Shown here: positions 8,500 through 41,799 of the stretch, piece by piece
Layout of the letters: each line of letters opens with the position of its first letter
How positions within the stretch are numbered: the stretch's first letter is position 1
DNA from: Apostichopus japonicus
Lineage: Eukaryota > Echinodermata > Holothuroidea > Aspidochirotida > Stichopodidae
Assembly: GCF_037975245.1 (NCBI RefSeq)
Contig: NC_092568.1
Span: 10,935,501-10,999,500 of the forward strand
Length of the DNA stretch: 64,000 bases
Direction: 5' to 3'
The notes under the pieces: generated by a model
Seen by the model: only the letters and a program-made list of their open reading frames with translations
Told to the model about the DNA's origin: nothing
Database searches by the model: none
Program-made: the position numbers and the translations under genes

Positions 8500-10781
8500 T
8501 AAGTGAAGAGAAATTCAATAAGGTTCAAGCAAAAAATTGTGGGTGTCCTGATATGATGGGATGCAAATAATAGGATTTAGTTCTACATCTGTTAGACCAC
8601 GAGAACGATTTCGAAGATATGGTGATGTGATAGAAAATTGAGTCAGTGATGTGTGACCGAGAAAGCATTTAACCTATGCCGGTAAATATATGTGTGTCTA
8701 CCAGTGTCTTGTTTTTGCTTCTTTTAATATTTAGAGTAAGTAAAACAAAAGACAATTGTTTTCTCCCGAACAAAGAGAATTATATAATTTCACTCTTATC
8801 TCTTTCCACTTTCAATTTTGTATACATATTACACACTTAGTTTCGATAACTGTTTGTCATGACGAACTTGTCAGGTAAAGTATAACCTTTATGACTGTAA
8901 TTAGCTGTATTACTCGTCAGGTACGTGAAATAGTGAATAAATTAAATGTCCCAATGCGTCTTCTTCTGGTTCAACGATAGTCAATACTCGCATTAAATTT
9001 GTGAACAATATGAAATATCATATTCATGTTAATAAAATAAGATTACACTGTACATGCAACATTATAAACCAAGACATATACGCAAACGCATGTTATTTCT
9101 AAAGATCTTACTGACTATTAAATGTTTCGCAGGTGTTTAGAAAAAAGCGAGTGTTTTGGTCAATAACCAACAAAAGAAAATAGATAAATAAATAAAAATA
9201 AAAGTACAAAGTGAAATAAGAACTAACATCGTCTAGTGTATTTCGGGGTTGTATATTCCATATATATGATGTGCTAGCATTGGGGTGAAGCATCCAAAGT
9301 TGTGACTCTAAGTTATTACTGACCACACACAGCCTAGATTTTGAGATAAAGAATATATTTCAACGTAGTACAGCACCCAGCTAAACATTCTTAATTTGCC
9401 TAATGACTATTTCCTATTACGTGTCAAAAAAGAATCTCTACGCACGAGCGTTGAGTGGCTTCTATATATAGATTAAGCCTGCTACACCATTTGGTAGAAG
9501 ATATGACATCATCTCATTAGCATAAAGACTAACACAAAAACCTATATGCTTGCATGGTCAACAGTAAATATACGCACAGTGTATTACGATGTATATTAGT
9601 TAAACTTATACCCTCTCCTTAGCAAGAATAGAAAATACAATAACCCAAGCTTTAATAACTAACATTCGGTTCTGGTAAGTTATAAAAAATGTCGACATTG
9701 CCGGGCTAATATTGCGTTGTTTAGGTGACCAATTACTACTGTGATGACGTGGCAAGGAGAGACCGAATAATATTGTCAGAAAAAATACCTTTTGCTTCCA
9801 TGTTAACTTTCGGTTCGATGTAATTACTGCATCAATTCCCACGTTCATATATTGTTATACTGTTTTAAGTGTGGGCGGTTATAAAATGTTCCTTTACAGC
9901 GATCTCATTTCACGCCCTAGTCGCATCTTTATATCTTCACACGGACATTACATAATTACAATACCAAACTTTAAGTATGATCATAATGTAAAAAAATTAA
10001 AATGCAGTTCATCCCTTTGCTTTTATGTAGACCAGCATTGCTGAAATTAATTTCTGTAATATTAACAAATCACATCTATAAAGTTTAACCTAACTTAAAA
10101 GCATCTCAAGTGTGACTCAATAATGTGTGGATTTCAACACCGTTTTTTATCTCACCAACACCAACTAACACTGAATTCTTCTTGACGGAGAAAAGGGATC
10201 GTTTTTCTACAATCGAAGCCTTGCGATGCCGCTTCATTATTTTACCCTCTGTCCTAAGTCTGTCTCTGTTCTCGCTACTTTTTCTTGGAACCTGGAAAAG
10301 CAACAGAGAACAGATATAGGAACAGAGAAAACGACAATATTAGACAAGAGGTATAAATCTCGCTTTGCATATAGGGTAAACTTTTTGGGGCGTATACCAG
10401 CAGTTGTTCACAAGACTACACCAACTAAACACAAATATATATCTGCAGTGCCTCTTCCAGAATTTCTCGGCAGGGGGAATGGGGGACAAGTATATAGGTA
10501 GATACCGAGATTAAAATCGAAATCGCGATGTATAAGAACATATCGGTACAAGACAAAAGATACTCGCGCCCGAATCGTGCCAAATTCTCCACTAATTATT
10601 TACTTCGTTTTGAGCAAATTATGTCTGCATAAAGTTCTTGGTTCCAAAAAATGCAGTAGATGGGATCCGGGCCCATGGGCACCGTCTCTGGATTCAACCC
10701 TGATCTGTATATTGAAAGGTAACTTATGACGGAGTCAGATATCAATGTTTTGGTTCAAGTTAGCCTTAATTCCACTAGTAA
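8500..10781. other. intergenic, no gene recognised
   Basis: AT-rich stretch downstream of the peripherin-like gene. Short open frames near 9.1-9.3, 9.6-9.85 and 10.1-10.5 kb have no family resemblance or splice context that I can see. Any 3' UTR of the minus-strand gene ending at 10782 would lie at the right-hand end. Confidence 0.4.
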
Positions 10782-11681
10782 TCAAAACTTAAGTTTAAAC
10801 GATTTCCCAAAGCCCTTCTTTGGACCTTTCATAGATTTGAACCCTCTCGAAGCAGGCATTTTTCTCATAGCACTTCCACCTTTCATACGAGAGGATAGAC
10901 CTTTTCCAAATCCCTTCTTTTTACTCTTAAATTTCGAAATTGGACTTTTTGCTTTGGAAGACATCTTGCCAAACTTTCTTTTGGTACTACGTTTGAGTCC
11001 ACTTAATTTGGCGCTCGTACCTTTACCCAAACCCTTCTTAGCTTTCCCAAAAGGTGACCTCTTCCCACGACCTGACTTGCCTTTTAATGGACTCTTTGGC
11101 TTACTCGGGGACCGTTTCTTCATACTCTTTACTGTGGGTTTTTTCTTCGATGATTTAGGTGAAGACTTAGTGGATGATGACTTGGTCGGTGATTTCTTCG
11201 ACTTGGAACCTTCCTTGCCGATCTTTTTATCCTTCTTGTCTTTCTTTTTGACTGTTGATTGACGACCCCCGTCTTTACTTTTAGTAGATTTCTTGGAGGA
11301 GGACTTTTTCTTACCTTCTGGCATCTCATCTGGCAATCCATCCATTAGATCATCACCGTCGTCTTCTGGAAATTGATCAGACTCTCCGTTTGCTGGACGT
11401 TGACTACCACTTTGCATTAGAGGGGAGTTCTCGTAAGGTGGACCGGGAGTCTGCTGCGCAGTGGTTTTGTTCTCCTCTTCAAAGTCTTCGTCGTCGAAAG
11501 TTGAATCGTCATCAAAGTCTTCGTCACCGGCCACGATACCTTCGACATCTTTAAAGTCTTTATGAGCGGAAGTGTTACTACTTCGGAATAAGTATCCGAT
11601 GGTAGTGGCCTCTGAGTCTCCCAACTCTTCGGCCTCTACCATTGATGTTTGTAAGATGCGGAATCCCAGGAGGATGAACAT
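10782..11681 (-). CDS. peripherin-like tetraspanin, exon 3A (end of TM4 and long basic tail)
   Basis: This is the last coding exon of the gene starting at 18998. It follows a good acceptor (ttattttcttttag) in phase 0, and the first 14 residues (MFILLGFRILQTSM) complete TM4 and align with PRPH2 exon 3. The exon then encodes an acidic stretch (rich in D/E, roughly protein residues 310-340), followed by about 170 residues dominated by Lys, Ser, Gly and Pro with SKKS, KSPTK and KKGFGK motifs, ending SFKLKF. The complete protein would be 566 residues, against about 346 in vertebrate PRPH2. The tail is cytoplasmic by tetraspanin topology. The initial ATG is an internal codon here, not a translation start. 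Tail function is unknown; the charge suggests binding to acidic lipid, nucleic acid or cytoskeleton (inference). Confidence 0.85.
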   Translation of the reverse strand: MFILLGFRILQTSMVEAEELGDSEATTIGYLFRSSNTSAHKDFKDVEGIVAGDEDFDDDSTFDDEDFEEENKTTAQQTPGPPYENSPLMQSGSQRPANGESDQFPEDDGDDLMDGLPDEMPEGKKKSSSKKSTKSKDGGRQSTVKKKDKKDKKIGKEGSKSKKSPTKSSSTKSSPKSSKKKPTVKSMKKRSPSKPKSPLKGKSGRGKRSPFGKAKKGLGKGTSAKLSGLKRSTKRKFGKMSSKAKSPISKFKSKKKGFGKGLSSRMKGGSAMRKMPASRGFKSMKGPKKGFGKSFKLKF

Positions 11682-11810
11682 CTAAAAGAAAATAAACAGA
11701 TGTTCAAGTCCTGCAGCTGGTTTGGCATATTAGTCATACATGCTGCAGTCATGGCTATAAGTTGTTAATATCGTGATATTGCACGAACGGTTGGATACAT
11801 GAGGTTGATT

Positions 11811-11912
11811 CTACTGTAAAATATATCCCATCGTGGTGGCCTCGGGGTCATCAAATGTCTCGGCCTCTGACATCGATGTTTGCAGGATACGAAGCCCACA
11901 GAATAAGAGAAT
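11811..11912 (-). CDS. duplicated alternative exon 3B of the peripherin-like gene (short tail)
   Basis: A second copy of the start of exon 3 lies about 230 bp upstream of exon 3A in gene order. The acceptor is strong (tgtaccttacag) and phase 0, and the first codon aligns with the first codon of exon 3A: ILLFCGLRILQTSM versus MFILLGFRILQTSM, followed by a shared SEATT/PEATT-type segment. It then stops at TAG after 33 residues (ending GYILQ). Joined to exons 1 and 2 it would give a 300-residue protein with a stub tail. A GT inside the last codons could also act as a donor, but I see no clear polyadenylation signal. It is either an alternative terminal exon or a decaying duplicate. Confidence 0.6.
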   Translation of the reverse strand: MLLFCGLRILQTSMSEAETFDDPEATTMGYILQ

Positions 11913-11960
11913 CTGTAAGGTACAAACAGATATGTTTCGCCCAATAAAGTTATAAGGGCT

Positions 11961-14591
11961 CAGGGGCGGATCCAGGATTTTGAGAAAGGGGGGGCCGACA
12001 TCCCGATTATAGCACTTTAGTGATCTGCGTCCTGGGGGAGGGGTCTAGGGGGAGGGGCCCCCTCCCCATTGGAAATTTTTGGTTAATTGTGAGTGCTTAG
12101 ATGCAAAATGGTGAAACATTTCGCCAAAAACTATAAAAACTAGAAACGTTGCAGACACGCTTTTTTGTGCACATATTTTGTCTCGATAGACACATATTTA
12201 AGAACGCTCAACAGTGCATGTACAATGGATACACTATTATTGCGTCGATTCGTTTTTTCTTTTGTGCGAAAATTATGACGCCAGATTCACCCCAAGAAAA
12301 AACATAAACAAGATATGTTCAATAAGATAATTATGATATACTTATTAATGAAAGGGGGGTGTAGGCGGTTTTACACTATCTAACGCAACGTAGTCGCCAA
12401 GAACCTTAAGTATTTTTAAGGGAGGGCCCGATAATAAGCGGAAACGAATCAACGAACCGAAAAAATATCGGAATTTGTGGACTATTTCTTGCTTCCTATT
12501 CAGGGGCGTAGCGAAGGGATTTTGTTGGGGGGGTGTGGAGAATTTGATTTGCCGACGGATCTGGAAGTGGTGACTGAAATGGGGGAGGGGTGTAAGGGGA
12601 GGGGGTGTCCCCCTCCCCTTTGGAAAATTTTTAGTTTTGAAACGTCCTTAGATGCAATCTGGTGTATATTTTAAGTCAAATTTGATTTGCCGACGGATCT
12701 GGAAGGGGTGACTGAAATGGGGGAGGGGTCTAAGGGGAGGGGGTGTCCCCCTCCCCTTTGGAAAATTTTTAGTTTTGAAACGTCCTTAGATGCAATCTGG
12801 TGTATATTTTAAGTCAAATTTGATTTGCCGACGGATCTGGAAGGGATGACTGAAATGGGGGAGGGGTCTAAGGGGAGGGGGTGTCCCCCTCCCCTTTGGA
12901 AAATTTTTAGTTTTGAAACGTCCTTAGATGCAATCTGGTGTATATTTTAAGTCAAATTTGATTTGCCGACGGATCTGGAAGGGATGACTGAAATGGGGGA
13001 GGGGTCTAAGGGGAGGGGGTGTCCCCCTCCCCTTTGGAAAATTTTTAGTTTTGAAACGTCCTTAGATGCAATCTGGTGCATATTTTAAGTCAAATTTGGC
13101 ACCGTAGAATTTCCATTTCGATATTATTTTTATGGCAGTCGGCAGAAGAAGAATTAATTGGGAACAATTATCGAACTGTGTTTTCTCTTTCACCGATCGT
13201 TGAAATAGTGAAACTTTGTGATGAAAATGTTCAGAAAACTTTCCGGTAATGAGAAATAACAACATTCATTGATATACAAGCGAGAAACGTTAAAAATTGT
13301 GTACAATTCGTGAGCGGTGTCCTTAAGTTTTCCACGGAGAACGAATGACATCTGCGATGACGTCATTCTGAACAGAGGATAATAACAACACGTTGTCACA
13401 CGATAGCACGACTCATGGGCTGCGGCCTATACGGAAGCCTTTAATTCCATTTCTTTCACTGAGTTGCCGGCGATTCTGGCACTCGTGAGCCTGGCTACAG
13501 TAGCTATACTGACGGCCGTGACATTATCAGTTATTTGCCGAGAGGTTTTTAACTTGCAGGCGTCGAGTGATTGGATTGGTGAATGAGTTTATCAGATGAA
13601 GAACTGGAAAATCGAAATAACCGATAAAGAAGCTCCCGTTCTCCTTTTCTCTATTCAGCTTTCCTTCTTTCTTCCCCTTCCGCTCTCTTCACCTTTTCTC
13701 CTTTTGCCGACAAACCCAAAATTTGCCGACAGCGACCAAATTATTATATACACCCCCACACCCCCCCCCCCCCGCTCTCTACGCCCCTGCACGCGGAATT
13801 ATCCAAACTGTTTCCAAAAGAACCGATTCTAGCCTATACAAAAGGGCCCAAAATCTCAAAGGTTTACTTGTTAACTCAAGGTTTCATACTAACGAAGAAT
13901 CAGCTGACTCTCAAGGTTCACACGAAGCTCTTTTAGATGCTCTTATAGCTGCACTATGAGTCCATAAAAACTCGTGCACAGAAAATAGATGCATTTTGAG
14001 AACGAGACGCCCAGGCCGAATATAAAATATTCAAAGGCTACTACTGATGAAGCTCCTCCTATAAAGTTTGAGAGCAGAAACCGTTTAGTTGGTCATAAGA
14101 ACCTACACTAGTCTCTCCTACTATTAACAGTACACTCAATTCACGTAATAGGTGCAATTATGTTCCACCACGAGGAGCATGCTATAAGTTCATGTTCCTC
14201 GGGCCCTCCCTTAAAAATACTTCAGGTTCTTGGCGACTACGTTGCGTTAGATAGTGTAAAACCGCCTATACCCCGTTTCATTCAGATAATTATGATATAC
14301 TTGCTAACTGTGCATTGATTTTCCCTGACAGTAATAGTCAGCACTATAGTACTGAGCCGTATCTAATTAATACGCGATGTCGCGTAGGCCTGGTAATTGC
14401 CTTAGTTTCAAATTTGGAATAAAAACGATCGCGTTTCAGGGAAGAGCAGCTGGATATATATTAGGCTTTTCTTTCACCAAGGTATGCCTATTAGGAATTT
14501 GAAGTACTCCCACATAAAAAAAAAACGCAACTGATTTCCAAAAAGGGGGGCCGGGGCCGGGTCGGCCCCCCCCCCCCTGGATCCGCCCCTG
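11961..14591. mobile_element. 2.6-kb terminal-inverted-repeat element, 5-bp TSD GGGCT
   Basis: The ends are CAGGGGCGGATCCAGG and its exact complement, flanked by GGGCT on both sides (11956-11960 and 14592-14596). Inner arms 12344-12430 and 14200-14283 are also inverted repeats. Between them sit the 138-bp tandem array and sequence with a second pair of hAT-like ends (CAGGGGCGTAG at 12501 and CTACGCCCCTG ending 13789, no matching TSD). No transposase is recognisable. The element lies in the second intron of the peripherin-like gene. Confidence 0.7.
12546..13097. repeat. 138-bp tandem repeat, four copies
   Basis: Units begin with GATTTGCCGACGGATCTGG at 12546, 12684, 12822 and 12960, an exact 138-bp step. 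Copies are almost identical, so the expansion is recent. Each holds a GC-rich inverted repeat (GGGGAGGGGG, then TGT, then CCCCCTCCCC) that can form a stable hairpin. The array is inside the 11961-14591 element. Confidence 0.95.
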
Positions 14592-15212
14592 GGGCTTTTG
14601 GTTTGGAACAGTTTAAAAACGTTCTAATTTTTATAAATGAATATCCCAGTTAGTTTTTTTTTTGTGCGTTTTTTTTTTTGCAATGCACATTAACCTGATG
14701 CACTTTTGTTTTGATAACCGTTTGAACTGTAAACAGCAACGGACAAGTTAACAATTCCAAAATCGTGTGCAGAGTGGTTGTCCAGGAAACCGTTGCTATG
14801 GGATACCCTTCGTCAACCATATATAGCAATGTGTTGCAAAGTTAGCTGTGCATCTGAAACAACAATCTGTGGCATGGAACACATATCTGAGTATACCTTC
14901 TTATACCTTTTTATCTGAATATACCTGATTATATCTGATTATACCGAACACATATCTGATTATATCATATCTGATTATACCCTCAATTGTTGTGAAAAAG
15001 TATTGACTTACTAACAAGGGAACATCAACATATGGACATAACAAATATTCAAAACAAATGATGCTACCTATATAATCTTGTTTACATGTACGATTCGGGG
15101 ACTGAACCTTGTTATTTAACTTATTTAACTATAATGATGAGAACATATTCTTTATTCTTTCTATATTGTTGTTCCCGATTTGGACGAGATAATACTTGAA
15201 TATTGATCACAC

Positions 15213-15598
15213 CAGAGGCGGAGCGTCCATACAGTCAGGGGGGCGATACCCCCCCCCCCCTGACGGACTCAAATGGACTGCTGGCGCCCTTTTCAGCTTT
15301 TTACCACTTTTTACTTATTCGCGATTATTTTTATTGCGCTCTCATCTACCTATTGACATTTGTCACATTTTGTTGGTGTAATTTTCTGACAAAATGCTCT
15401 AACAGCTATTTATTCTTCGTTTATCTGCAAATTAGCAAGGCCCGGAAAGGATCATTTCCGGCGATCTAGGGAGTATCTATACTCAAAAAATTTCTGTACG
15501 CTCCGCGCCAACCTGTGGTGGCGCTCCGCTTAGATAGTGTCGAAAGCGCCCCTACAGACCATTCTCGCCCCTGACCAATACCCCTAGCTCCGCCACTG
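15213..15598. mobile_element. hAT MITE (CAGTGGCGGAGC family), copy 1
   Basis: This 386-bp element has ends CAGAGGCGGAGC and GCTCCGCCACTG. Flanks are GATCACAC and GCTCACAC, an 8-bp duplication with one mismatch. It is the same family as 59286-59675 in opposite orientation, and carries the shared core near 15500-15540. It lies in the intron between exons 2 and 3 of the peripherin-like gene. Confidence 0.85.
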
Positions 15599-15727
15599 GC
15601 TCACACTGTAGCAGTTACACACGGGAATCTGATTGCCAAACGATGTATTTGACACGCAAATTGTCAGTCTTTGATGTTATGGGACAAAATGACGGTTAAT
15701 TAATGTCTGGGATTTGCCAATGCTCAC

Positions 15728-15962
15728 CTGAGTAAGGAATGCGATGAACACCAATGCACCGAGAAGTTGAAGACGTTTACTGAAGTATTCCATCAAGCTT
15801 TGCTTGCATCCCAGTGTGTGTAGTGTGATGCCGTCTGCGTGATTGTAGTTAAAATGGACGCTGTCGTCGTGGACATGATGATGAATACATGGACGATGGA
15901 TTCGAGGGTTACAACAACTAAACGGAACGTCGTCATTCAAGTAATGACCACTAGCCATCTTG
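15728..15962 (-). CDS. peripherin-like tetraspanin, exon 2 (large loop and start of TM4)
   Basis: The acceptor cacacctacag and donor CAG/gtgagc bound a 235-nt exon entered in phase 2 and left in phase 0. Human PRPH2 exon 2 (247 nt) has the same phases. It encodes the second half of the large extracellular loop, with PFSCCNP (residues 202-208), RPC (212-214) and GC (240-241), then the beginning of TM4 (LLGALVFIAFLTQ). PFSCCNP with the following RPC is diagnostic of the peripherin/ROM1 subfamily of tetraspanins. Confidence 0.9.
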
Positions 15963-16024
15963 CTGTAGGTGTGCAAAACAAAAGAGACAAATGGGTGTAA
16001 GGATTTTGAGGTCAATAGTTGTCT

Positions 16025-16290
16025 TTTTTTTTATTGGCGGGGTGGGGGGGGGGGGAACAATTGTGATACAGGTAGCATGGACACTGTGAAGTTCGGACAC
16101 CTGAGCCTTAAAACACCCCAAAACTTTATCTTATGGTATAAATCACCTGAAAATATACTTGATATGGTGGGGTCATATTGGAGAGAAAATAACTGTAGCT
16201 TCGTAGTTTTTCGTGAAATTGGCTCTTGCTGTAGGTTGTCATGGTGAAATCGTGTATTTCTTAGGGGTGTCCGAACTTCGCATTGTTCCG
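16025..16290. repeat. inverted repeat, possible MITE
   Basis: GAAGTTCGGACACC near 16088 is repeated as its complement GGTGTCCGAACTTC near 16266, giving a fold-back of about 190 bp just downstream of a long G run. I could not define a target duplication, so this is only a candidate element. It sits in intron 1 of the peripherin-like gene. Confidence 0.4.
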
Positions 16291-17141
16291 AACCTCGCAA
16301 TACTGACTATACCACATAAATTCCCATACATTTGAACAATGCTTGCCCATCCAAGTTTTGATTGTAATGTTAATACTGACTTCTTCAATAAGTTTATTTC
16401 GCAATATTTTCTTCTTATTTTATTAAAAGCAACACAGCAATATTTCAATCCATAACACCTATATATGTTATATTGGCTGCTCTGATGGGGGACTTAGTCC
16501 AAGATATTTTAGACCAATTCTAGAGATCGTAATGTAGGGTATGAACAAAGGGCGCAATCTTGCTTTATTTTATTCTATAAGGAACAAATGTAGACCTACC
16601 TTTTAATGAAGAACTGGGTATTTACGTTACAATCAAATGTAAAATATTATACAAGGGGAGTTTGTGCAGTATCATACCCCCCACCTCACTATAACATGAT
16701 GGTGCCTCATGCTGACGACGTAAACATCGACTTCCATAGAATGTAATGTCCCTCTTTTTTTGGTAAGAGATAAATAGTTTAATATCACGATCGACTCAAA
16801 TGCCTGCCATTGAACTTGTTAATAGAATATGTCAATTTACGAAGTCGCTATATAGTTGCGGACCTAAAATATTTTTCATCTGTAAAGAAATCTTAACAGT
16901 GTCATTTAAATTGCATCTTTCCTACCTCCCTCTCCCCCTCCTTCACTCATCCCTCCCCCCCCCCTCCCATCCCTCCAAAGGTAATGAGATCAGATTGATG
17001 TTGATATCTGGCGGTGCCATGTATTGATCACTGTAAAGAAATTGTTTCCCCCTCTTCTTTAACACAAGGATCACATGTGCCTTTGAGTATCTTTCATCAA
17101 TTGCTATAGGGGTAGCATAGGCCTACAGTACTAGCCTAACA

Positions 17142-17890
17142 CATAGGCGTACGGGACCATTTCAGTTTGGGGGGGGGCAGAACTTTTTGTGCCCGAAAGT
17201 TCCCGTGACACTATCTAAGCGGAGCGCCACCATCAGTTGGCGCGTAGCGTACAAGAAAATTTTTGGCACACAATGCCTCTCAGATTGCCGGAAACGGCAC
17301 TTCTGAGGCCTTGCAAGTTGTATCTAAACATTCTTTACTTTATAATCTCACGTTTAGAAATTTACACTTGCCCAAAAATTTGGTAAATTAGAAGAAGAAA
17401 AAATGGTAGTATCACTTTGAAGGGGGAAAATGGGACAGTATATTTTTTAAGCTCCTATTTAGTTACCTTATTTATTATTTTAACACAGTACTCAGCTACC
17501 TCCAGAAAAACATACATTGTTCAACGACACGTAGGCGGGATGATGTCGCTGTGTCGGGTGAGACTGCAATTTGTCTCACAAAAAAGTATAAAATATAACA
17601 AAGAATATGATAAACCTGTACTCTTAGGCTTGTAGGCACCCCCCACCATCCATGAAAAAGAAAATGTTTCTTATATACACTCATGTTGGGGATGTGCAGG
17701 TCAAGGGCGGCGGAAGCACTTTTAATCTGGGAGGGGGGGGGGGCACCGACATCAAAGGGCACTTTGCAGAAATTCGATTGGACTGATGCAGCCTTACATT
17801 TAGTACCCTTTATAACTCTTATTGTATTATCTTATTTGTGTATACACATCACTCAAATTTGAAAAAGATTAGGGCAAGCTACTGCATATT

Positions 17891-17969
<79 letters not shown>

Positions 17970-18201
17970 TTATATATATATATTTATATTATATATATTA
18001 TATATTATATATATATATTATATATATATATATTTATATTATATATTTATATTATATATAAAATTATATATATTTATATTATATATAAAAATTCGGGCAG
18101 CCTAAGAGAGAAAAAAAAATATATATATATATATTTTTTTCTCCTCTTTGGGGGGGGCAGTCTGCCCCCTGCCCCCCCCCCCCCTGCCTCGTACGCCTAT
18201 G
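17142..18201. mobile_element. hAT-like element, perfect 8-bp TSD, with AT microsatellite
   Basis: The 1060-bp element lies between two exact copies of GCCTAACA (17134-17141 and 18202-18209). Its ends are CATAGGCGTACGGG and CTCGTACGCCTATG. The shared core (CTATCTAAGCGGAGCGCCAC) is at about 17211. A long AT microsatellite and G/C runs fill the right half. It lies in intron 1 of the peripherin-like gene. Confidence 0.85.
17893..18090. repeat. AT-dinucleotide microsatellite
   Basis: About 200 bp of TA repeats broken by TG, TTT and ATT interruptions. It lies inside the element at 17142-18201. Open frames here are artefacts of the repeat. Confidence 0.95.
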
Positions 18202-18432
18202 GCCTAACATAGGTTTCTTTTTACGGGTTTGAACCGTCAAGTATTAAAAATTGATTCCGTACTTCTCACACCAATATCATCGCAATGTTTCTACATTAAC
18301 ATGGAGCATTTTATGAAGATTTTGCTACTATGATCAACTTTTCAATTGGACCCGAACGATTCATGCTGGAGGCCTAGGGTATAGGCTAACTTCTAATAGC
18401 CTAATGCATCTTATTCTGAGTAAAGTGCTTAC

Positions 18433-18998
18433 CTTCGAACTCGTTGATCATCCAAGTTCAAGTACATGTTGCTGATCCATTGGATATCAAACCAGTCTTC
18501 GTAGCCATCGTTACCGCAACAAGTGAACTCTATCTGAAGGAGATCGAATTCTACTTTAACAGTATCGTTTTCACCATATTTAGACATCGCGCTTAAAAGG
18601 CCTTCGTGGAAAGAATTCCTCAGATGTATTTGGTGTATAAAGCACATCAATCCTGTTGAAAAGAGCAGTAAGTTCAACACCAATAAAAATATCAGAAACA
18701 ACATTAAAGTCGGAACGACAGTTTTCCTTCGGCTGACGTCGTCGACGTCGTAAAGTAACTTTCCTCCGACCAAATCTAGAAGGATGAGAAAGACACCGAC
18801 CATGAGGAGAGCGATCAGTAGAATATTACTGTTATACCCTTCAATAAGATTCATTTTGCCCTCGATGTGAATCTTTATGTATAATCCACCGACTAGGAGT
18901 ATGCATCCAAAAAGAATTGAAATCCATGCGATGGCGAATAGGACTTTGCTGTAGCAACGCCTTTTCATTTCAGTCATACGAATCGAAACAAATGCCAT
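18433..18998 (-). CDS. peripherin-2/ROM1-like tetraspanin, exon 1
   Basis: This is the first coding exon of a tetraspanin of the peripherin (PRPH2/ROM1) subfamily, which shapes highly curved photoreceptor disc rims in vertebrates. TM1 spans about residues 19-43, TM2 57-79 and TM3 96-120. The large loop begins near 121 and holds CCG at 160-162. The run LLQIEFTCCGNDGYEDWF and the following IQWISNMYL match the PRPH2 family closely. The exon ends CGA AG at a consensus donor (gtaagc), phase 2, the same phase as PRPH2 exon 1. Joined to exons 2 and 3A the protein is 566 residues; with 3B it is 300. The cysteine that vertebrate PRPH2 carries at position 150 for intermolecular disulfides has no counterpart here. 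Both introns are full of hAT-like elements. Subfamily identity is strong; a photoreceptor role is inference. Confidence 0.92.
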
Positions 18999-18999
18999 C

Positions 19000-21700
19000 T
19001 TTATTGCCGATTTTTAACATCCAAAGTTGCTGTCAAGTATTAATTGTGATGGCGTAACGCTGGAAAGTCCATATAGCTATTGAATGGCCTATACGTTGTA
19101 GGCTAAACATGGTTATTTTCCGCAGAAAAAAGGTCGAGATAATTTTTCCTAAACCATAGTTGCCGCAATCTGTGCACGATAAGGCTATGAAACTGAAACG
19201 TTATGAATTATTTTCAAAATGGGAAGAAATAGAACTTTCCTAGTATGCGTTGTGCAGCGCGATAACAACCGTAACGTCGCGCTTATCTGGCTAGCGTTTA
19301 TCTTGGCTACTTTTCATTACGTCGTGCGTGAACTATTTGTAATGCGCTTACGTGTACCAATGCGCGGAACGTCTAAATGGCATGTAATCCATTGAATAGG
19401 AATTTAGGTTTTAAAAAAGGTGGGGTGTGACCCTGGAGTACTTGAAGCCATCTACCACATAAGGGGTACTCCCCCAGGAAAGTAGGCGTAAAATGGTGTA
19501 TTCTGAAGCACATAGTTATGTTATTAATTAGGTTGTTACTAGGTTGAAATGCAACGTTTCGCCCACATAGCTACGTTTGAATTTTTGTGTGAGGTTGAAG
19601 GGGCTTTATAACCCACTCCGCCCCCCCCCCCCCCTCCCTTTCGCAAACACACACACCTGGATTTGCTTCCGTCAAATAAATGATTTACGTTCAGAGACTA
19701 ATTAAGGCAACAGATCAGGTAAACTGGAAAAAAAAACAATTGTTCATGTTCACCTTAATTAAGAGGCCAGCTAGAATGACATGATTATTCGTTACTGTTA
19801 TGAGATTTGTATTAGTAAAATTTGTGTGGAAAACTAATTGCATTTTACTTTTTCGTCGCATTCGTGTCAGAAATTCGAGTGCCGGGGTTTGCATTTCTGC
19901 CATGCATACTTATAGGCCTATGCGTTTCAGACTGGAACATTTGGAACTGTCATTCAACAGAGATGGTTGACAATATTGACAAAATTCCCCGACCGTCTCA
20001 ATGGATACGGTTGTGTAGACTATTACTGCCATGTGTCCCTTATCAAGCACCTTGGCTCTAGATAAATTCCTGTCTGGTTAAAGATGAATCGGACCTGTTC
20101 AGACTTTGTTCTATTTTCGAAATAACAGACAACTTAATTTGGGATACTTCGATATGATGATACAACCACTGTTCTCTTCATCGGCTGCACACTATACTCT
20201 CTAACGGAATCCCGGGAATCATGTGATAACGCAGTGTACTTTATAACAGACGCATTGTGGCAACACTGGCGTCCCGGACGCGCGCGCTTCACCAAAGATG
20301 TGTTACAGCGCCGAATTCGCTAGATACTTGACTTCTTACCTAAAATGAAGCCGTACTGCATTTTTTGGCAGGAATATATTCTTATGCACCACACATAAGG
20401 TACATCGTAACTGCAAATAAATTGGGATATTCCGGAATGATTCTTCACCCAAACAAAATCTTTGGTATGAAGTATAGCAATCCTTCGACGCTGTATAAAC
20501 ACTTTGGACTTCACTAAGAACTGACACAACATACGTATGATTCAAAATGAAAAGCACGCGCTCTCTTTAGAAAGAGCGCGTTCCTTTTTTCATATCGAAT
20601 TATACGTGTATTGCAGTTCTAAACACTAGTACGCATAGCGCGTGGCATTTATGTTTTCAGGAACACGGGGAAATAAGACACACACATGAAATTAGGAGAG
20701 TTGACTAATGACGTCATAAATACAGTTGCCTGTAGTGTACGTGTAGTATATCAATAATGACCTTATTACGAAGGACTCATGACGAAACAAGATAACATAG
20801 CATAAAGATGTCCATGGAAACGACTTTCCCTCGATTCACATTTGGACGAAATTGAATGCGATAACTTGGCAGTTCTGTAGGACATAGACCTTTCATCTCG
20901 AGGGCTCATTCATTAGAGTGTTCCGAGAACTAACTCATATTTGCAGGTATTTTAATACTAGTTAAGTAAATTCTGTATTCTATAACGAAAAGTAACGTAT
21001 TTTATAGCCCAGTTGTCGGTCATGCCTATAGCCATGGAATTCTGAGTTGGAGGGGCACCAACACTTGACGAGGGCCATCCATGGGGTCTATATACTCGTG
21101 TCCTGAAACTCGAAAGCTTTCTGTACACATGGTGGTGGCTCAGATGGGGGATACAGTAGTCTGCCCCTCCCACCCCACCCCTCCACCTCCCAAAAAAGGA
21201 ACCCATCATTGAGGGTTCTAAACCACAAAAGGTGGGAGTAGAGAGAAATGCATTAGAGTTCCATATTAAAAAGTGGGGGACATTATGCTCCCGGTCCTTT
21301 CCCCCTACAATCGAATTGACGCTCATAAAAGGAAGAGGTAGCTTTTTTAGAGAGTATAATTACTTCCAGAGTTATAATAAACAATAGTGCATATTTAACC
21401 ATTATAATGATAATCATACCACAGGGTGGAGTGGCGGGGGAGTGGGTGGGGAGTTGTAAGTTGCCAAACAGTTACGGTGGGTTATACCGATGGTCCTCCT
21501 AACATGCACATTATGGTAACGTAGGATGCATAAAGCTTCCAAATGAACAGACGAATAGTTCAGTTCTTCCGATTCCACGCAAAAAACAGTAAAAATTTGC
21601 CAAGCACAAATGTTTGTTGAATGTTTTCCAATGCTGTTCTGTTGTTGATATAAAGTTCAATGAACTTGCTTTGGTTGAGTTAATAGCATTTATCAATCAA
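19000..21700. other. intergenic, no gene recognised
   Basis: Region upstream of the peripherin-like gene, presumably holding its promoter, though no core element is convincing. A GC-rich hairpin lies at 20556-20581. At about 21290-21325 a right-end-like fragment (GAATTGACGCTCAT) recalls the termini at 4428 and 7596. No coding exon is supportable. Confidence 0.4.
20556..20581. other. GC-rich hairpin
   Basis: ACGCGCTCT is followed after eight bases by its exact complement AGAGCGCGT, then by TTCCTTTTTT. It does not fit the histone mRNA stem-loop. No promoter is visible, so a Pol III transcript is not supported. Confidence 0.4.
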
Positions 21701-24648: not shown

Positions 24649-25668
24649 TTAATCCCACTTTTGAACCCTTTGTGATTCGGGTAAAATACCCCAGTTTGGA
24701 GAATGCTTGTCACTCGCAAGCCAATTGAAATCATCCACATCATCCCAGTTATTCCTATTTGGATCTAATCCGCTCTGTCTGTAATCCTCGCCCTTCGTCG
24801 CATAATCCCACTGATACGGAGCAAACAAGACCATGGTCGTGTCCTCGATGATCGCCCGACTGGTGACCTGGAGATAGAATTGAGTGTCCTTGGTGTGGTG
24901 AACCCGTAACTGCTGACAGGCTACCACGAATACGCAGCTTTCGCAGTTGTCTACGAATATCGAGCCGGGAACGGGCCCGCAGAATACCTTACAGTCTTTC
25001 AGGTTGTTGACGTGGACTGCACTCGGATATCCTTCGAGGGTCACCTTGCACGATTTGAGATTGGAGAGACTGACGTCCTGAAGCTTAATTTCTTCGCCTG
25101 CCATTCGCAGGCATTCCGAAGATCTGTCGGAAAACCCCTTTGAGTCTTGAACGAAGGCATTTTCTGGTTCTACTCCGGACTTTGCTCTTCCGTCCTCCTT
25201 GGGAGGTTTCTCCTCCACGGGTACTCCCTCGGATTCCTTCTTGCGAGATTTGAACGCAAACTTCTTCTTCGGGATCATCTCCTCTCGCTTTCGTTGAAGC
25301 GTCGAGAGCAGTTCGCTGGCCGACGACTGGGAGCGATTGATATCATAGGAAGGGAGGACAGCCGTATAATCTGCGATGAATTTTTGAAGTTTCTTCACCC
25401 TCATAATTAATGCATCGAACCTATCCGTCAGCTGAACCTTGGGGAGTTTTGCACCAGGTCTGCATAAATCTTCAAGACCAGTCTCTATCGATGATTTTTC
25501 AACTTGGAAGGTTTTGTAGAAGTAGTCGATGGATGTCTTCTTGGATTCATCGACATCTTGTTCCTCCCTCTTCTTTTCGATCTCAGCGATCCTTCCATCG
25601 TGCCGTTTCTGGAGCTTCTCTGTCATCCTGTCCTTACGTTCGCTCAAGTCTGATGTGTCCACTTCCAT
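24649..25668 (-). CDS. TBCC: tubulin-specific chaperone C (tubulin-folding cofactor C)
   Basis: A single-exon coding region of 339 residues; human TBCC has 346 and is likewise intronless in its coding part. Cofactor C joins the cofactor D/E-tubulin complex and stimulates GTP hydrolysis by beta-tubulin to release native heterodimers in the cytosol. Residues 1-130 are charged and helical (spectrin-like N-domain). A Lys/Glu/Pro-rich linker follows, and the C-CAP/cofactor-C beta-helix domain covers roughly 170-320. The invariant QQLR motif is present; its Arg (about 255) is the arginine finger. The C-terminal NNWDDVDDFNWLA and SPNWGILPE motifs match the family. I chose the ATG at MEVDTS because an acceptor (ttcaattggcag) ends five bases upstream of it, indicating a 5' UTR intron. 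Confidence 0.96.
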   Translation of the reverse strand: MEVDTSDLSERKDRMTEKLQKRHDGRIAEIEKKREEQDVDESKKTSIDYFYKTFQVEKSSIETGLEDLCRPGAKLPKVQLTDRFDALIMRVKKLQKFIADYTAVLPSYDINRSQSSASELLSTLQRKREEMIPKKKFAFKSRKKESEGVPVEEKPPKEDGRAKSGVEPENAFVQDSKGFSDRSSECLRMAGEEIKLQDVSLSNLKSCKVTLEGYPSAVHVNNLKDCKVFCGPVPGSIFVDNCESCVFVVACQQLRVHHTKDTQFYLQVTSRAIIEDTTMVLFAPYQWDYATKGEDYRQSGLDPNRNNWDDVDDFNWLASDKHSPNWGILPESQRVQKWD

Positions 25669-25689
25669 ACTGACTGCCAATTGAAAGAG

Positions 25690-27410
25690 ATGGAAGAGAT
25701 AACTTCAAATAAGTCATACAATGACTAAGTCTAGTTCTTTTCACAATTTTCTATTTTTCACCTTGAAACATGTACACCAATAGGGTCAGGTAACCCTAAC
25801 CCTGCTTGTTGCAAAGAGAAAACTTGAGTCAGCAAACCCAACATGCAGATCATCTATCGTTTTCATCATACTGTAGCTACATATCAATCACATCTTTTAG
25901 TAACCCTCAAGCTGTGGATAGAAGATAGAGTTAACAAAGAAAACCCATAAAGACTACATGTAGGAATTTTACAGGTAACAGGGTTGGATGCATTTACTTT
26001 AAAACTGAAAATAACCAGTTTATAAAGCACTCTCCTTCAAAATTTTGCAAACTGAAAGGAGACAAAACCCTACCTTTAGACTCCATACCCAAACATAGGA
26101 CTACCCTGATATTGTCCACTTCTTCTAACAATATCTTTCAAAGTTGACTGGTTTCATATGCAGTGGACCAACGACTTTCACCAGATCTGTAATATCAAGG
26201 CCATTCTTATCTTATTTCCCTTATGTTTTAAATAAGGTATTGAACATTGTTTTCATCCTGCCAAAGTCAGGTTTATACTCAGCCTTAGCTAGTGCCCATG
26301 GCTGACAAAAACGTCAGTTTTCCTGTTCCCAGGTTTTGAGCTACATGTACAGTAGCAGCTCCATGCCATAAATTCTATATTCAAGCATAATGTTAAACTG
26401 AGACACAAATCCAACCATCATCATTGGGCTATATGATAGTGATAACTGGGCATGAAAAACTTCCCAAACAGCTAGGAAATATCTTCTGCCGATTGGGAGA
26501 ATGTCTTGAGCAAGGTGAAAGACTTGAGCGATGACCAACATGTGCTTCATTTTTGTTTTCATTTTGCGGTAATGCCATGGATTTTGCAAATGCCAGAATC
26601 TTTCATGTTTAAAATACTTAACATGGCCGAACAATTGGCAATGTTTTCAGTGTCAACACTGCTCTTGTAATCTTGTTCATCTTGAAAATTTGAAAAGAAA
26701 CACACAGAGAGAGAAAACAGGTTTCAAATCCTTGTGACAATATGACATCATCAATTCATATGACGATTCTTCACAATTTTTACACTGTTAGGATATCTCC
26801 AAAATGAAGTAAGACTTTTCTTATCAACTTGTGGGAGTTGCTCACAAAGTCTTATAATCATTTCAGCTAAAAACGATAACTGGGCTGTCACCATAGAAAT
26901 TGATAAGGAATTTCTATGGTTATCACTCACTCACGTCAATAATTTTTTGACGAAAGGGATTCCCCATTTCTCTGCCATTGTCCATGGAAAGTTCACAACA
27001 GCTATTATCACCATCACCATTTCACATTTGTCGTTCTTACATAATCTGATAGTTGTTTTCAAATGGATTATATTAGCAAAGAAGTTAGGAAATTAATGCG
27101 AATCAATGCTTTCTATAAAAGTGTATATATAATAATGATATAGTCTTTAAGTTGTTAACACTAACAGGTAAAACGTATGCTAAGCTTGTATGTCGTTGGT
27201 TATGCCGATAAGATTAAGAGAAAAACCAAATAGCAAACACTGCATTAACATCTAACACACATACAGAAGTATATATAATAGTAGTTTTGCGAAAAGCATG
27301 TAACGTGACCGTTACAGCGTTCAGGCCCTGGTCAGTACTACACATTAGGCTATGTCAAATTAATTAATTGTGCACTTAACACTGCTTCTACATTTTCGAC
27401 ACTATTTTAT
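25690..27410. other. probable TBCC 5' UTR intron, no other gene
   Basis: AT-rich, with no recognised repeat family or coding exon. Its status as an intron rests on the acceptor next to the TBCC start and the donor at 27412-27417. Confidence 0.3.
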
Positions 27411-27500: not shown

Positions 27501-28807
27501 CTTAGCAACTGACACAGTGTCATAAATGACGTACGGATTTCTTTCCCAGGTGGTACTGTAGTACTATACTATTGTTGATTTGCCGTAAGATAGTCTTCCA
27601 AAGCTACTGTACCACTGCATTTGTCATCGAAGAGTCCAGTGTATTTCGCACGTTGTAAATGGTGTTAGTTTGAATCGAGGTATGAGCGAGATAACGATTC
27701 CTTATCTAACCTTAATAAATAACCTACGGCAAGTTTCGTAAAACAAAGTCGAAACACCCATGGTGTTGTCAACTGACTCCACACTTCAGTTATGGGTCAG
27801 TATTTATACTGTAAAGACAGAGACACGGTTACATTATAAGTGCTGGTGGGAGCTATACTTAGGCCTAAAATTTATGATAGCATTGGGGTCCGAATTCCGA
27901 CCATGTTGTGGTAGTTTACTGTAATAACGTGAGAAATTTCATGCTAGAAAGGCTGCTTTTAATTGAGTAGAGGAAGCACTTATCGTATTCTACTTTCCTG
28001 AGTATCACACAGACTGACTTTACACTGTCAAGTGTCAGTGCATGCCACTTTAGCCTGCCTAAGGCCTAACATTAGGACTCTATATTGCTTACAGTAAGTC
28101 AATCAGTGAGCAGAAATGATAATTAGATAATAATTTAATGGTATAAAATGTGTTGCAAGTTTTGGCTCATTTATTCTAGGACCATTCTTGGATATTCATA
28201 TCCTTGAACTTGTGGAAAAGTCTCACCCCCACCCCCCTCCCTTGATAGTGAATACTTGTATGTAGTACTTAATACATACAGTACTATCTTCTGTTCAATT
28301 CACAATTGCAATGTGATAATAAGAAACCTATCATTAACATGTACCTGTACTATTTTACATACACATGTCTCAGCTATATCCGAAAATGCAAAAACTGTTC
28401 TGTAGTGTATTAGATAACAGTAAAGTTGTTCCATATTCATTCTAAAATTTCGAATTACATATTTTACAGTCGATTTATATAACCTTTTCAAATAGCTATA
28501 TTAGAAAATGCAAAAAAAAAAAAGACAAAAAAAATGAACTTTTGTGTATTGGATAAAGGTAAAGATGTTTCATATTTATTCTAAAATGGCTCATTACATT
28601 TTTCATTTTAACAGTCAATATTGAATGTTAACACAATGATGAAAAATGTAATGAGCAATATATAACCTCTTCAGATAGCTATATCAGAAAATGAAAGAAA
28701 AAGAAAAGAAAACTGTACTGTTGAATATTGGATAAAAGATAAAAATTGTTAAGTATTTATTCTATATTTGCTCATTACATTTTTCAGTCAATGTAGCCCT
28801 GTCAGAT

Positions 28808-29072
28808 ATGATCATCAAGTTCACCTTCACGGTAGTAATACTTGCTTTGTCGCAAGTGCCGTTTTGTCTGATGCTGCCCAGGGATCCTCTGGACAAACCA
28901 AACATTATCATCCTAGTAGCAGACGACATGGGATATGGGGACCTCTCCAGCTATGGACATCCAACCCAAGAATCTGGTCCTATCGACAGAATGGCCTTGG
29001 AAGGGATTAGGTTCACACAGTGGTATAGTCCTGAATCAGTTTGCACTCCGAGCAGAGGGGCTACCCTTACAG
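28808..29072 (+). CDS. steryl-sulfatase-like arylsulfatase, exon 1 (signal peptide, catalytic Cys)
   Basis: First of six coding exons that join to a 515-residue sulfatase. A signal peptide (about 1-20) is followed by [15 protein letters not shown], whose Asp39 and Asp40 bind the metal. CTPSR (79-83) is the sulfatase signature; Cys79 is the residue expected to become formylglycine. GKWHLG (Lys136, His138), the histidines of FLHLH (234/236), SDHGGH (Asp288) and Lys309 before WEGG complete the active site. The IIQQP, AGAPIPSDRVIDG and LPCCNPPYCFC motifs ally it with the STS/ARSD/ARSE/ARSF/ARSH group. The membrane hairpin of human STS is absent, so I infer a secreted or lysosomal enzyme. Substrate is unknown. 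The exon ends ACA G/gtgcat, phase 1. Confidence 0.92.
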
Positions 29073-30061
29073 GTGCATACATACATAATGTACATTCATA
29101 CGTACGAACAGATATACACGCACGCACGCACAAACTTACATGTATTCATTGTATTAATTTTGATATTTAAAGGGTGTGAAGACTCGCGCACAAAGAAACT
29201 TCTCATGCCGGTAATCTGACCTAGTTTCGAATGAGGTGTAATAGACACCACCATCAATCCCAGAAAATACACACACAGCTTGCTACCGTTAGTAACTAGA
29301 CACGATAGTGTACAGTCAATACATACAGCTACGGTCAATACCCACAACACTGTGTACATAGCATCGATGGACATCTCAGGTCTAGATGAAAGATTACAAG
29401 GTTTCACGTTTCATTAATGTCTGCATTTTGTAGCAACAAGAAGAAAACTTCACTTGCAAGCAACGTACGGAAAGTAAACTTTTTCAGAACGCAGCACACG
29501 GTTTGGGGCGAGTCTTCAATGCCTTTAAGTTGTTGTTAGTATATGCTTCCTATGCTGTATGTAACATTCCCTCCACTCGTTTGCACTTTAGTCCTGACTG
29601 AATGTATCATCAATGTCAATGTTGCAATTTTAACACATTACATGGGATCTGTTTCTTTGGAAGTACATGTAACAATCAAAACTGTTCTTTTTCAATGCAT
29701 ATACATTCAGGAAAAATAGTCAGGAAATTTTTAGATATTTGAAGTCAAAGTCTAGTAGGAAAGTGCATAAGATTCTCATATGAAACACAGCCATTAATTT
29801 TAGAGCATATTTAGCAAAGAGAGGAACAACAATTGTTAGAAGAAGATGCAGTTCTTGACCCTGTCTATCTCTCCTACCCACCCCACCCCTTCCTTACCCC
29901 ACACAGACACACATCTCACCACCACTTCTCCTTTGTAATGCTGCTAATGATACCTTTTATGTTAATCTCTGCTTATAATTTTTTTTATTATAATTTTTAA
30001 AATTGGATGGAGTTGTTAAGTTATGTTACCATCAACTTACCTTAATTTCCCTTCTCTGCAG

Positions 30062-30214
30062 GTAGACTTCCTGTTAGGGTCGGCTTGTATGGCCCATATG
30101 AACGAGTTTTTATCCCTCATATGCCAACTGGTTTGCCAAAGAATGAAATCACCATAGCTGAAGCATTGAAGGATGTGGGCTACGCTACTGGGATGAATGG
30201 AAAGTGGCATCTTG
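30062..30214 (+). CDS. steryl-sulfatase-like arylsulfatase, exon 2
   Basis: Follows acceptor cttctctgcag and restores the glycine split by the intron (G/RLPVR). It encodes [21 protein letters not shown] and the second sulfatase signature GKWHLG with active-site Lys136 and His138. It ends at donor gtatta in phase 1. Confidence 0.92.
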
Positions 30215-30779
30215 GTATTAAAAAATAGTTTTCTCTTTTCAATTTTAATAGCAGCTGCCTGTTTGTGAGGTTTTTTTCCATATTGAAATTACACAGTCAA
30301 ATTTTTGTGACAGGATTTGTTGTCTACTTTACAGCAATAAAGACAATTCCTGTGTGATTAAAAGTAATATTGCAATCTTGTTTCAGCACAAACAGAGATA
30401 TATAGTTTTTATAGAATAACTCTGCCTTAATTATGAAACAGCTTGGTTTGTCACGAACAGCTCTGGTCACCATGGCATAGCTAGGTGATTCTTTGTTTCA
30501 CAGGGAAATTTGGACTGCTAATTTAAGAAATGACTGAAATAAAATTTGTACTGTAGGTCATCAGGATTTTAGTGTTCAAGAAGTTTTCAAGAGTAAACTT
30601 TCCAAGAGGTTCTGAAACTCCACATTATTTCTCAAATATTGGAAATAATGTTTTTAATTTAAACCATTTAAATATATCTCTGTTAGGAGTAAAGCGGCCT
30701 TGAAATTTGGACGTGAAGGATCATTATTTGACACCTATCTGGGGATAACACTGATATAACCTGTTTATCATAAACCATG

Positions 30780-30786
30780 TTCTATG

Positions 30787-30844
<58 letters not shown>

Positions 30845-30861
30845 GTATTTATATATATATG

Positions 30862-30930
<69 letters not shown>

Positions 30931-30935
30931 ATATA
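30780..30935. repeat. AT-dinucleotide microsatellite in sulfatase intron 2
   Basis: About 150 bp of TA repeats with sparse TTT and G interruptions, ending about 40 bp before the next exon's acceptor. Open frames in it are artefacts. Confidence 0.95.
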
Positions 30936-30972
30936 TCTACATCTATACACACACACCTTCTGTAATTTCCAG

Positions 30973-31085
30973 GTATCAATGAGTTTAGGTTTGATGATGG
31001 TAATCACCTACCAGCCCATCATGGCTTTGATGAGGTTGGAACCATCGCACCTTTTACACACCACGCCAGATGTGATGAAGAAAAG
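30973..31085 (+). CDS. steryl-sulfatase-like arylsulfatase, exon 3
   Basis: Short 113-nt exon after acceptor tgtaatttccag, encoding the FDDGNHLPAHHGFDEVGT segment, the counterpart of the HxGFD region of sulfatases, and ending RCDEEK in phase 0 at donor gtatag. In human STS the next segment is a two-helix membrane hairpin, and nothing of that kind is visible before exon 4. Confidence 0.85.
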
Positions 31086-31971
31086 GTATAGTATTTGCTC
31101 ACTATATGCTGATAATAAGTGTTTGGCTAGGTACAGTAACCTCAACACCAATGTAAATGCTAGAATGGTCATTACCTTTATGGTGCTATGGTTTTATGCA
31201 GCAAAGCCTGCCAAATTACAAATTATAGTGGCAGTTATTCGTGACTAAATGCATAATTTACAAGTTTTAAAGTATAAAGTTCTTTTATATTATAAATCCA
31301 GGCTATAAAGGCTCTCTGCAATCTATATGCTTAAAGTCATATAAAATATAATATAATAGTTTGCTTTTATAATTGAGTACATCACTATAATGGCATTCAT
31401 ATACCATAACATATTTGTAACTTTCAATACACTGCAATGTGGGTTTAACATCCAGAAACAGCTTTAACAAAGATGTCTCAATTATAACCAATGAAATCAA
31501 TATTTACCATTTTCTTGGTCTCATTCCATGAAAAATACTCATTTTACAGAGCCCCATCCACCTTGTGCCTCTGTGATTATTGTTTTCACAGGTTATTCAA
31601 TCAAAGCACTATGTCCAAATGTAATATTGTAGGTTGTTTTCTTGTTGCCAAGTCAGTCAATGCTTGATCTTTACGATGGGTAAACTATTTTTAAGGATTA
31701 AAAAGTTCATCTCATTTATTTGAACCCAAACTTTTTTTTTTTTTTTCTGAATCAGCTGTTTACAAATGTGTACTGAATGTTTGTTTTTTACTTGTAGTTT
31801 GCAGGCAAGTATAAAATCAATGCAGTAAAGGTGGTGTGTATATGGACAGATGTGCGTGGGTGTAAGTGTGTGTCTGTGTGTTTGTATGACACCCTAGCTT
31901 ATAAACATGAATCTCAAGAAGGGGCAACTGGTGGCAAATTTCGAGAATTTTTGTTTGATTTATCTTTTCAG

Positions 31972-32194
31972 AAAATTGTCTCTTCTCCAGAAAAAAGCTA
32001 CTGTTTCTTTTACAGTAATGACACAATAATCCAACAGCCAGCAGCACACCATAATATCACCAAAACTCTGGTCTACGAAACCAAAGCATTTATATACAAC
32101 CATGAAAATGAACCTTTCTTCTACATGCTCAACTTTCTGCACCTTCACGATAGTCTGTTCGCCGGCCCGGAGTTCCAAGCATCATCTAAACGAG
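31972..32194 (+). CDS. steryl-sulfatase-like arylsulfatase, exon 4 (GC-AG donor)
   Basis: Begins after tttatcttttcag in phase 0. It encodes NDTIIQQP (matching the YEIIQQP motif of STS), two N-glycosylation sites (NDT, NIT), and PFFYMLNFLHLH with an active-site His. The only donor that keeps frame with exon 5 is CGAG/gcaagt, a GC-AG intron; the nearby GT alternative gives an immediate stop. Confidence 0.88.
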
Positions 32195-33376
32195 GCAAGT
32201 GTTGACTCTCTGCTCGGGTACAGCTAAACATGAACTCTGAGACAGAGACAACTTTGCTGTGAAGAAGTCAAAGCTCTACTAATACACTTAGAGAGGCTTT
32301 GATTACAAAAAGAGCTGTTCTTATATATATTCTCTCAAAATTTCCCCACCCAAATACTGCTCCAATTTTGTGCTGTCCACAGATACAGCTAGATTCATTG
32401 GAAGAGCTCAAGACTTTTAGTCCAAAGATCATCTGGTTCAAATCCTGTTCTGGCAAAAAAATTCTTTGTTCTTCCCAGAGAAAATGAAAATCAGAAATAA
32501 TTTTTGTATTTGATTCCCAAAACCATATTTTTTCATCTAGGTCTTAAACACATAAATATTTTTTTTTTTGGTTTATCAGTATGCCTTCATTGAATCATGG
32601 AAAATGTAAACAACAAAACACTCTGATGAGAAATTTAATTTTTTCTTTCTTTTCATTTTTTTTATCTTCAAGTTTGTTATTTGCTATATAGCTGAAAGAA
32701 CACTCAACAATGTCTATACATCCATGCATAAGCTCCCATCAATATATATATATATATCTGCTGAATGCGACCAGCATGTCTCACTATCTGGTACTCATAA
32801 TCATCTCACAAGTGTCACTTATGCTACTTGATATGCTACTACTTATATGCTATTGTCTGTTGCTTATTGAAAGATCCAAGTATAATGGTATGCCAATAAT
32901 CATTTCAAGCCTTTTTTGGGGGGAGGGGAAGGGGGGGGGGGTTTGCACCAACTTTCAAACAACTTTACCAAAACTAATGTATCCTTCTACAAATGAACTT
33001 TCAGGGTCAAGTAAGAGATGTTTCTGTCTTCATGGACCCTTGTGCTTATAGTGGCATTGAAGGGATGGACATTGTTTTCCCGATATGTGCCTCCCCCCCC
33101 CTCAAAAGGGTGGATCCACCCTTTTTCACTATACCTAACAAGAATTTTGTCACCTCATCAGCAAGGAATGGAGTATTGATCAAGAAATAATTGTCCCCTC
33201 CACCCTCACTCTCTTACCAAATTTCCTGGTTTTAATTATGCGTTATAAAATTTACTTTGATTCCGTAAATTCAAGGGTAAATCACAGCTTTATATTTTAC
33301 TCTGTATTGAACAGTGATTAGCATATTCCCAACACCAGTGACTTTTATCTACAATATGTTTCTCCGTTCCTTGCAG

Positions 33377-33541
33377 GTGAATATGGCGATAATTTGAATG
33401 AGATGAGCTGGGCTGTTGGCGAGATCTTAGACACATTGAGGAAGCTAGAAATTGAGAAGAATACTTTGGTTTTGTTTATATCAGATCATGGTGGACATAT
33501 AGAGATATGTAGTGACGGTGGCAAAAACTCTCCGTTCAGAG
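33377..33541 (+). CDS. steryl-sulfatase-like arylsulfatase, exon 5
   Basis: Bounded by ttccttgcag and AGAG/gtaaga, phase 1 to phase 1. It encodes GEYGDNLNEMSWAVGEIL and LVLFISDHGGHIE, which holds the metal-binding Asp288. The next residue is His289, where human STS has Gln and ARSA has Asn. Confidence 0.92.
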
Positions 33542-41775: not shown

Positions 41776-41799
41776 ATTGAGTTGATTCTCTCAGTTCTA

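Follow-up and report, generated by a model that had tools for sequence, protein, structure and literature searches.

The gene that we identify from its sequence as the counterpart, in the echinoderm Apostichopus japonicus, of vertebrate peripherin-2 (PRPH2) has a last exon that, judging by the alignment of the two copies, is duplicated in tandem. Our main reading, to which we assign a probability of roughly 55%, is that two competing 3' splice sites make both a tailed and a tail-less peripherin from this one gene. In the window (the whole stretch of 64,000 nucleotides that we analyzed), the gene comprises three exons on the minus strand, with two alternatives for the last of them:

18998-18433, minus strand: exon 1, with the ATG at 18998 and 188 codons plus 2 bases
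15962-15728, minus strand: exon 2, 235 bases
11912-11811, minus strand: short last exon, 33 codons followed by TAG
11681-10782, minus strand: long last exon, 299 codons followed by TGA

Exon 1 matches the Pfam Tetraspanin family (PF00335, 60.4 bits) and ends in a strong phase 2 donor, CGAAG/GTAAGC. Exon 2 codes for the rest of the second extracellular loop and the start of TM4, and closes with the donor CAG/GTGAGC at 15728, in phase 0. Both last exons have phase 0 acceptors, CTTACAG/ATT at 11912 for the short exon and CTTTTAG/ATG at 11681 for the long one. A preliminary description of this DNA had placed these acceptors about 230 bp apart, and the two exon starts measured 231 bp apart; we likewise reproduced both frames and stops that it reported, a 299-residue exon as against a stop after 33 residues. 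Joining the exons at these sites returned the two product lengths that it had given, predicting proteins of 300 residues with the short exon and 566 residues with the long one. The first 33 codons of the long exon are homologous to the short copy, and 266 residues lie beyond them. The intron ahead of the duplicated last exon also holds, at 12541-13098, four tandem copies of a 138-bp unit that are 99% alike and rich in G- and C-runs.

The naming of the gene as a peripherin was upheld by a PRPH2 match along the full length of the 300-residue product. Residues 2-299 align with 7zw1_A, the peripherin-2 of the solved PRPH2-ROM1 complex, with an E value of 9.9e-61, compared to 9.6e-32 for ROM1. The corresponding bit scores are 209 for PRPH2 and 114 for ROM1, followed by 29 and 27 for the next solved tetraspanins, a ranking drawn from solved structures only, with other animal families outside the comparison. 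The product scores 101.4 bits against PF00335, for which the cut-off is 32.1 (the query was approximate at the exon 1-2 junction). The CCG motif and paired large-loop cysteines are present, as in tetraspanins, and all six large-loop cysteines are kept: Cys160, 161, 205, 206, 214 and 241 correspond to PRPH2 residues 165, 166, 213, 214, 222 and 250. We numbered PRPH2 as the 7zw1_A chain numbers minus 7, a conversion checked on p.Tyr204, p.Pro210 and p.Arg284 in the tables of PMC12470102.

The intron positions match those of PRPH2 as well. Intron 1 lies behind the second base of the codon that pairs with PRPH2 residue 194, and intron 2 separates residues 276 and 277. Human PRPH2, whose last exon is exon 3, has the end of exon 1 at c.581, base 2 of codon 194, and that of exon 2 at c.828, where codon 276 closes (PMC12470102); both introns therefore agree with PRPH2 in place and phase. 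A five-residue gap between product residues 146 and 147 spans the PRPH2 stretch with Cys150, the free cysteine proposed to link dimers (PMC9645710). The missing stretch suggests that this peripherin cannot form disulfide-linked chains of the PRPH2 type. Since the Cys150 feature is one of vertebrates and is absent here, we class the gene as a homologue of peripherin rather than as one with the function of PRPH2.

The two predicted products end at different points relative to PRPH2. The short form can be aligned as far as PRPH2 residue 308, with its final residue expected to correspond to 309. The amphipathic helix of PRPH2 covers residues 312-321 (PMC9645710), so the short form stops naturally just ahead of it and the helix region is absent; in experimental work, the functional tail has been taken to begin with this helix. 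In the long form, a weak alignment continues to PRPH2 residue 320. Its 266 extra residues bear out the basic tail of the preliminary description, with 71 K or R and 32 D or E, and are acidic first and strongly basic afterwards (net -15 over the first 72 residues and +54 over the rest). A search of the long last exon against Pfam found no family up to an E value of 0.1. Polybasic segments with aromatic residues bind acidic membrane, and by analogy the basic tail of the long form may do so too. The tail of PRPH2 has a role apart from that of the body: it retains disc membrane and suppresses ectosome release (PMC10665016, PMC9645710), and a ROM1 body carrying the PRPH2 tail can form rims (PMC10665016). 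On that analogy, the tail's function would be missing from the short form, a bare peripherin body, and present in the long form.

We compared the two last exons directly, and found that they align without gaps over 33 codons, with 18 of 33 residues and 64 of 99 bases identical. The homologous stretch covers the end of TM4 and the cytoplasmic linker (EAE...D.EATT.GY), and the motifs RILQTSM and EATTxGY are conserved in both copies. The preliminary description had both exons encode the same end of TM4; the homology stands, but the residues differ there, and the match is longer than thought, taking in the whole short exon rather than 14 residues. Its further statement that the tetraspanin body is unaltered by the choice of exon needs correction, as six of the first seven residues, at the end of TM4, differ between the copies. 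One such difference is a cysteine of the short form, Cys272, which lies at the inner end of TM4 and has no counterpart in the long copy. Palmitoylation-type sites occur in tetraspanins (PMC6773723), and Cys272 is a possible site of this kind.

A tblastn search of the 64-kb window with the short exon returned the other copy at E 1.1e-9 and the next match at 0.69, so the likeness of the two exons is not due to chance. Fresh duplication is ruled out by the 35 of 99 bases that differ and by flanks that are unlike. Outside the exons, the upstream flanks of 100 and 30 bases are no more alike than shuffled sequence (560 and 57 of 1000 shuffles were as good), and neither are the downstream flanks of 120 and 40 bases (887 and 926 of 1000). 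We also rejected a duplication extending into the introns: the shared upstream sequence amounts to only 8 bases in the pyrimidine tract, in the comparison that 57 of 1000 shuffles equalled.

The paired exons have diverged under constraint. Their 35 differences fall 10, 5 and 20 at the first, second and third codon positions, and silent sites, including four-fold ones, differ strongly, giving a pN of 0.26, a pS of 0.65 and a pN/pS of 0.40 (codon bootstrap 0.22-0.67; 1 or above in 0.05% of 2000 resamples). In a codon model over the 33 codons on which this comparison rests, a single omega of 0.24 for both copies had a log-likelihood of -228.87. Setting omega to 1 in both copies fit 4.5 log units worse (-233.37), and letting both evolve neutrally with stops allowed gave -235.36. 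Selection rather than recent origin, at which the preliminary description had hinted from the third bases, is thus the better account, and lifelong neutrality of both copies is rejected by the model.

Neutrality of one copy since the duplication gave log-likelihoods of -232.55 for the long copy and -231.15 for the short copy. The latter is 2.3 log units worse than the shared omega, which disfavors lifelong neutrality of the short copy. Letting the short copy turn neutral only in the final 10, 30, 50 or 75% of its branch gave -228.96, -229.20, -229.56 and -230.22. Neutrality over the last half of the branch thus costs just 0.7 log units, and in this model a late decay would be indistinguishable from constraint. 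We also simulated neutral evolution of the short copy, setting indels, by assumption, at 0.1 or 0.05 per substitution. At 0.1, 0.2 and 0.4 substitutions per site, the share of runs that kept reading frame, acceptor AG and length was 21-34%, 4-13% and 0.4-2.5%, respectively; given this low survival, the short copy, if dead, probably died late.

These results bear on the alternative that the short copy is a leftover, which worked for long and fell recently into disuse, its early stop being part of the decay, with only the 566-residue protein now made. We consider this rather unlikely. The statistics allow neutrality over up to half of the branch, and up to a third of simulated copies survive 0.1 neutral substitutions per site unharmed; moreover, the short copy is without a poly(A) hexamer of its own, and past PRPH2 residue 308 only the long copy aligns. 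Against it, the short copy's frame, acceptor and length are all intact, both shared motifs are kept, and its acceptor scores slightly higher than that of the long copy.

We scored splice sites crudely, with approximate frequency tables. On this scale, the short and long acceptors score 4.5 and 4.2, ranking 60 and 71 of 3637 minus-strand AGs in the window, and the exon 2 donor ranks 3 of 3784 minus-strand GT sites. From 15728 to 10782, the short acceptor is equalled or exceeded by ten other AGs; taken alone, the acceptor score therefore establishes little beyond both acceptors being acceptable. The best donor in the short copy or the gap behind it scores 0.5, compared to 7.2 for the real donor, so the short copy is a terminal exon. 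Its use as an internal exon was discarded for the same want of a worthwhile donor, and a cut at the sole GT at its end would throw the long exon out of frame.

We looked for ten poly(A) hexamers and found none of them between 11811 and 11682, which would leave the long exon as 3' UTR in the short form. AATAAA is absent across 12300-9300, and neither form lies near a textbook signal. The simplest picture would be one common 3' end, with the splicing machinery choosing between 3' splice sites separated by 231 bases. A search of 9300-19500 for known RNA families returned none at gathering scores.

The distal of the two acceptors lies in a hairpin:

11675-11706, minus strand: hairpin with a perfect 9-bp stem and a 14-base loop

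The perfectly paired arms are TGAACATCT and AGATGTTCA; the loop contains the polypyrimidine tract, and the acceptor AG for the long exon is part of the 3' arm. The 65-base stretch at this acceptor folds at -18.7 kcal/mol, compared to -9.5 +- 2.2 kcal/mol for dinucleotide shuffles (z -4.17, reached by 0 of 200), and the acceptors of the short exon (z -0.79) and of exon 2 (z -0.54) fold unremarkably. The window has 1596 AGs of comparable GC content, of which 25 fold as strongly, 14 of these with the AG paired; among the 159 that are also pyrimidine-rich, six fold as strongly and one, the long acceptor itself, has its AG paired. Perfect stems of at least 9 bp number 172 on the minus strand, 26 of them outside simple sequence. 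Having spotted the hairpin after the fact, we treat it as a lead, not a result: by pairing the distal AG, it may bias the choice of acceptor.

The same features could serve a brake, in which the short acceptor tunes the amount of full-length peripherin through an unstable or dominant-negative short product, or through an RNA with a long 3' UTR. The whole long exon would indeed stand as 3' UTR in the short form, with no earlier poly(A) hexamer, and a distal site folded in a hairpin could be slow. However, a brake needs no conservation of the 33 residues, yet replacement differences between the copies have been held down and frame and length kept. We therefore think a brake improbable.

We next turned to the surroundings of the gene. 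Upstream of the peripherin gene, its neighbor on the minus strand encodes tubulin binding cofactor C (TBCC):

24649-25704, minus strand: TBCC gene in one open frame, with TBCC_N and TBCC domains (E 1.2e-41 and 4.6e-24)

From the TBCC stop to the peripherin ATG is 5,651 bases. Human TBCC and PRPH2 are presumably also adjacent, on one strand, at 6p21.1. PRPH2 is located at 6p21.1 (PMC4496857), and a table that places PRPH2 and TBCC in one column with an equal linkage value (PMC3287856) fits adjacency without showing it. The TBCC-peripherin neighborhood may be very old. Elsewhere in the window, open frames with Sulfatase and Sulfatase_C domains at 28736-34537 on the plus strand are apparently exons of an arylsulfatase gene. 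At 40723-41813 on the minus strand lie repetitive open frames with many short MLSTHNMSLFS-like repeats, of which the frame at 40726-41694 has no Pfam match.

The genome contains at least 29 Pfam tetraspanin matches, two of which are this gene. Searching around the other 27 with the peripherin body and both tail exons, we found no peripherin-like locus at any of them: the best match to the body (E 0.003) was the ordinary CCG...SCC pattern, and neither tail exon matched at E 1 or better. Among the at least 29 matches, this is the sole peripherin found. The two last exons might instead come from different transcripts, made from another promoter or from a gene copy that escaped notice, with no splicing choice involved. 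The DNA alone is compatible with this, but we hold it to be very improbable: neither exon 1 nor the tail exons recur in the 64-kb window, and a genome scan, through Pfam matches and hence a lower bound, brought up no further peripherin.

We return to the main reading, a choice between two 3' splice sites. Exon 2 would be joined either to the proximal acceptor at 11912 or to the distal acceptor at 11681, and we infer that both junctions are used. The proximal choice would yield the 300-residue form, ending after the conserved linker and before the amphipathic tail helix; the distal choice would yield the 566-residue form, running through the helix region into the long, acidic-then-basic tail. 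With a common tetraspanin body, tailed and tail-less subunits could mix in one oligomer. Subunits without a tail would form curved membrane but do none of the tail's membrane-binding and trafficking work, which the tailed form would add; the hairpin over the distal AG may bias the choice between the two forms. A wider version of this model, which we put forward tentatively and at less than even odds, is that a single gene of the echinoderm type, its last-exon choice set by the hairpin, supplies a tail-less rim-building peripherin and a large-tailed one, doing the job of the PRPH2-ROM1 pair in one gene.

In vertebrate photoreceptors, the peripherin body shapes the disc rims and the tail prevents disc membrane from being shed as vesicles. 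The question raised here is whether the jobs of body and tail were separable before vertebrates had two genes. If our main reading is right, an animal that makes its one peripherin with and without the tail would permit a direct test of that separability, and would show what peripherin is used for in an animal without image-forming eyes.

Tandem exon duplication with alternative use is well known, terminal exons included (PMC5896119, PMC9013439); a peripherin with two last exons is new as far as our literature search reaches. In the literature searched, partly by title, we found neither an echinoderm peripherin nor a peripherin with two last exons. The gene has what marks tandem duplicated alternative terminal exons, namely two homologous end exons with compatible acceptors. 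As in the final two exons of cephalochordate preGNAS and in Drosophila pip, homologous end exons adjoin each other behind one upstream donor. Those cases are backed by transcripts or annotation, whereas ours is putative, being read from DNA; here, moreover, the copies differ 9-fold in length and have a common downstream end. Splicing also alters the ends of human tetraspanins, but the cases described in PMC6773723 involve exon skipping or alternative start or stop codons, not a duplicated last exon.

Compared with vertebrate PRPH2 (Tspan22), the gene is alike in its full-length body, six large-loop cysteines, three exons and intron places and phases, and in its TBCC neighbor, presumably also next to PRPH2 in human. 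It differs in having two last exons where PRPH2 has one, in the gap at the Cys150 stretch, and in a strongly charged tail that runs 266 residues past the common part. In a table of human tetraspanins, PRPH2 and ROM1 each have a single mRNA in their row (PMC6773723). In the mammalian PRPH2-ROM1 pair, too, two related subunits have bodies of one kind but unlike tails; the bodies are interchangeable in rims, and the PRPH2 tail has its own role (PMC10665016). PRPH2 and ROM1 are separate genes; here, one gene would supply both kinds of subunit by splicing.
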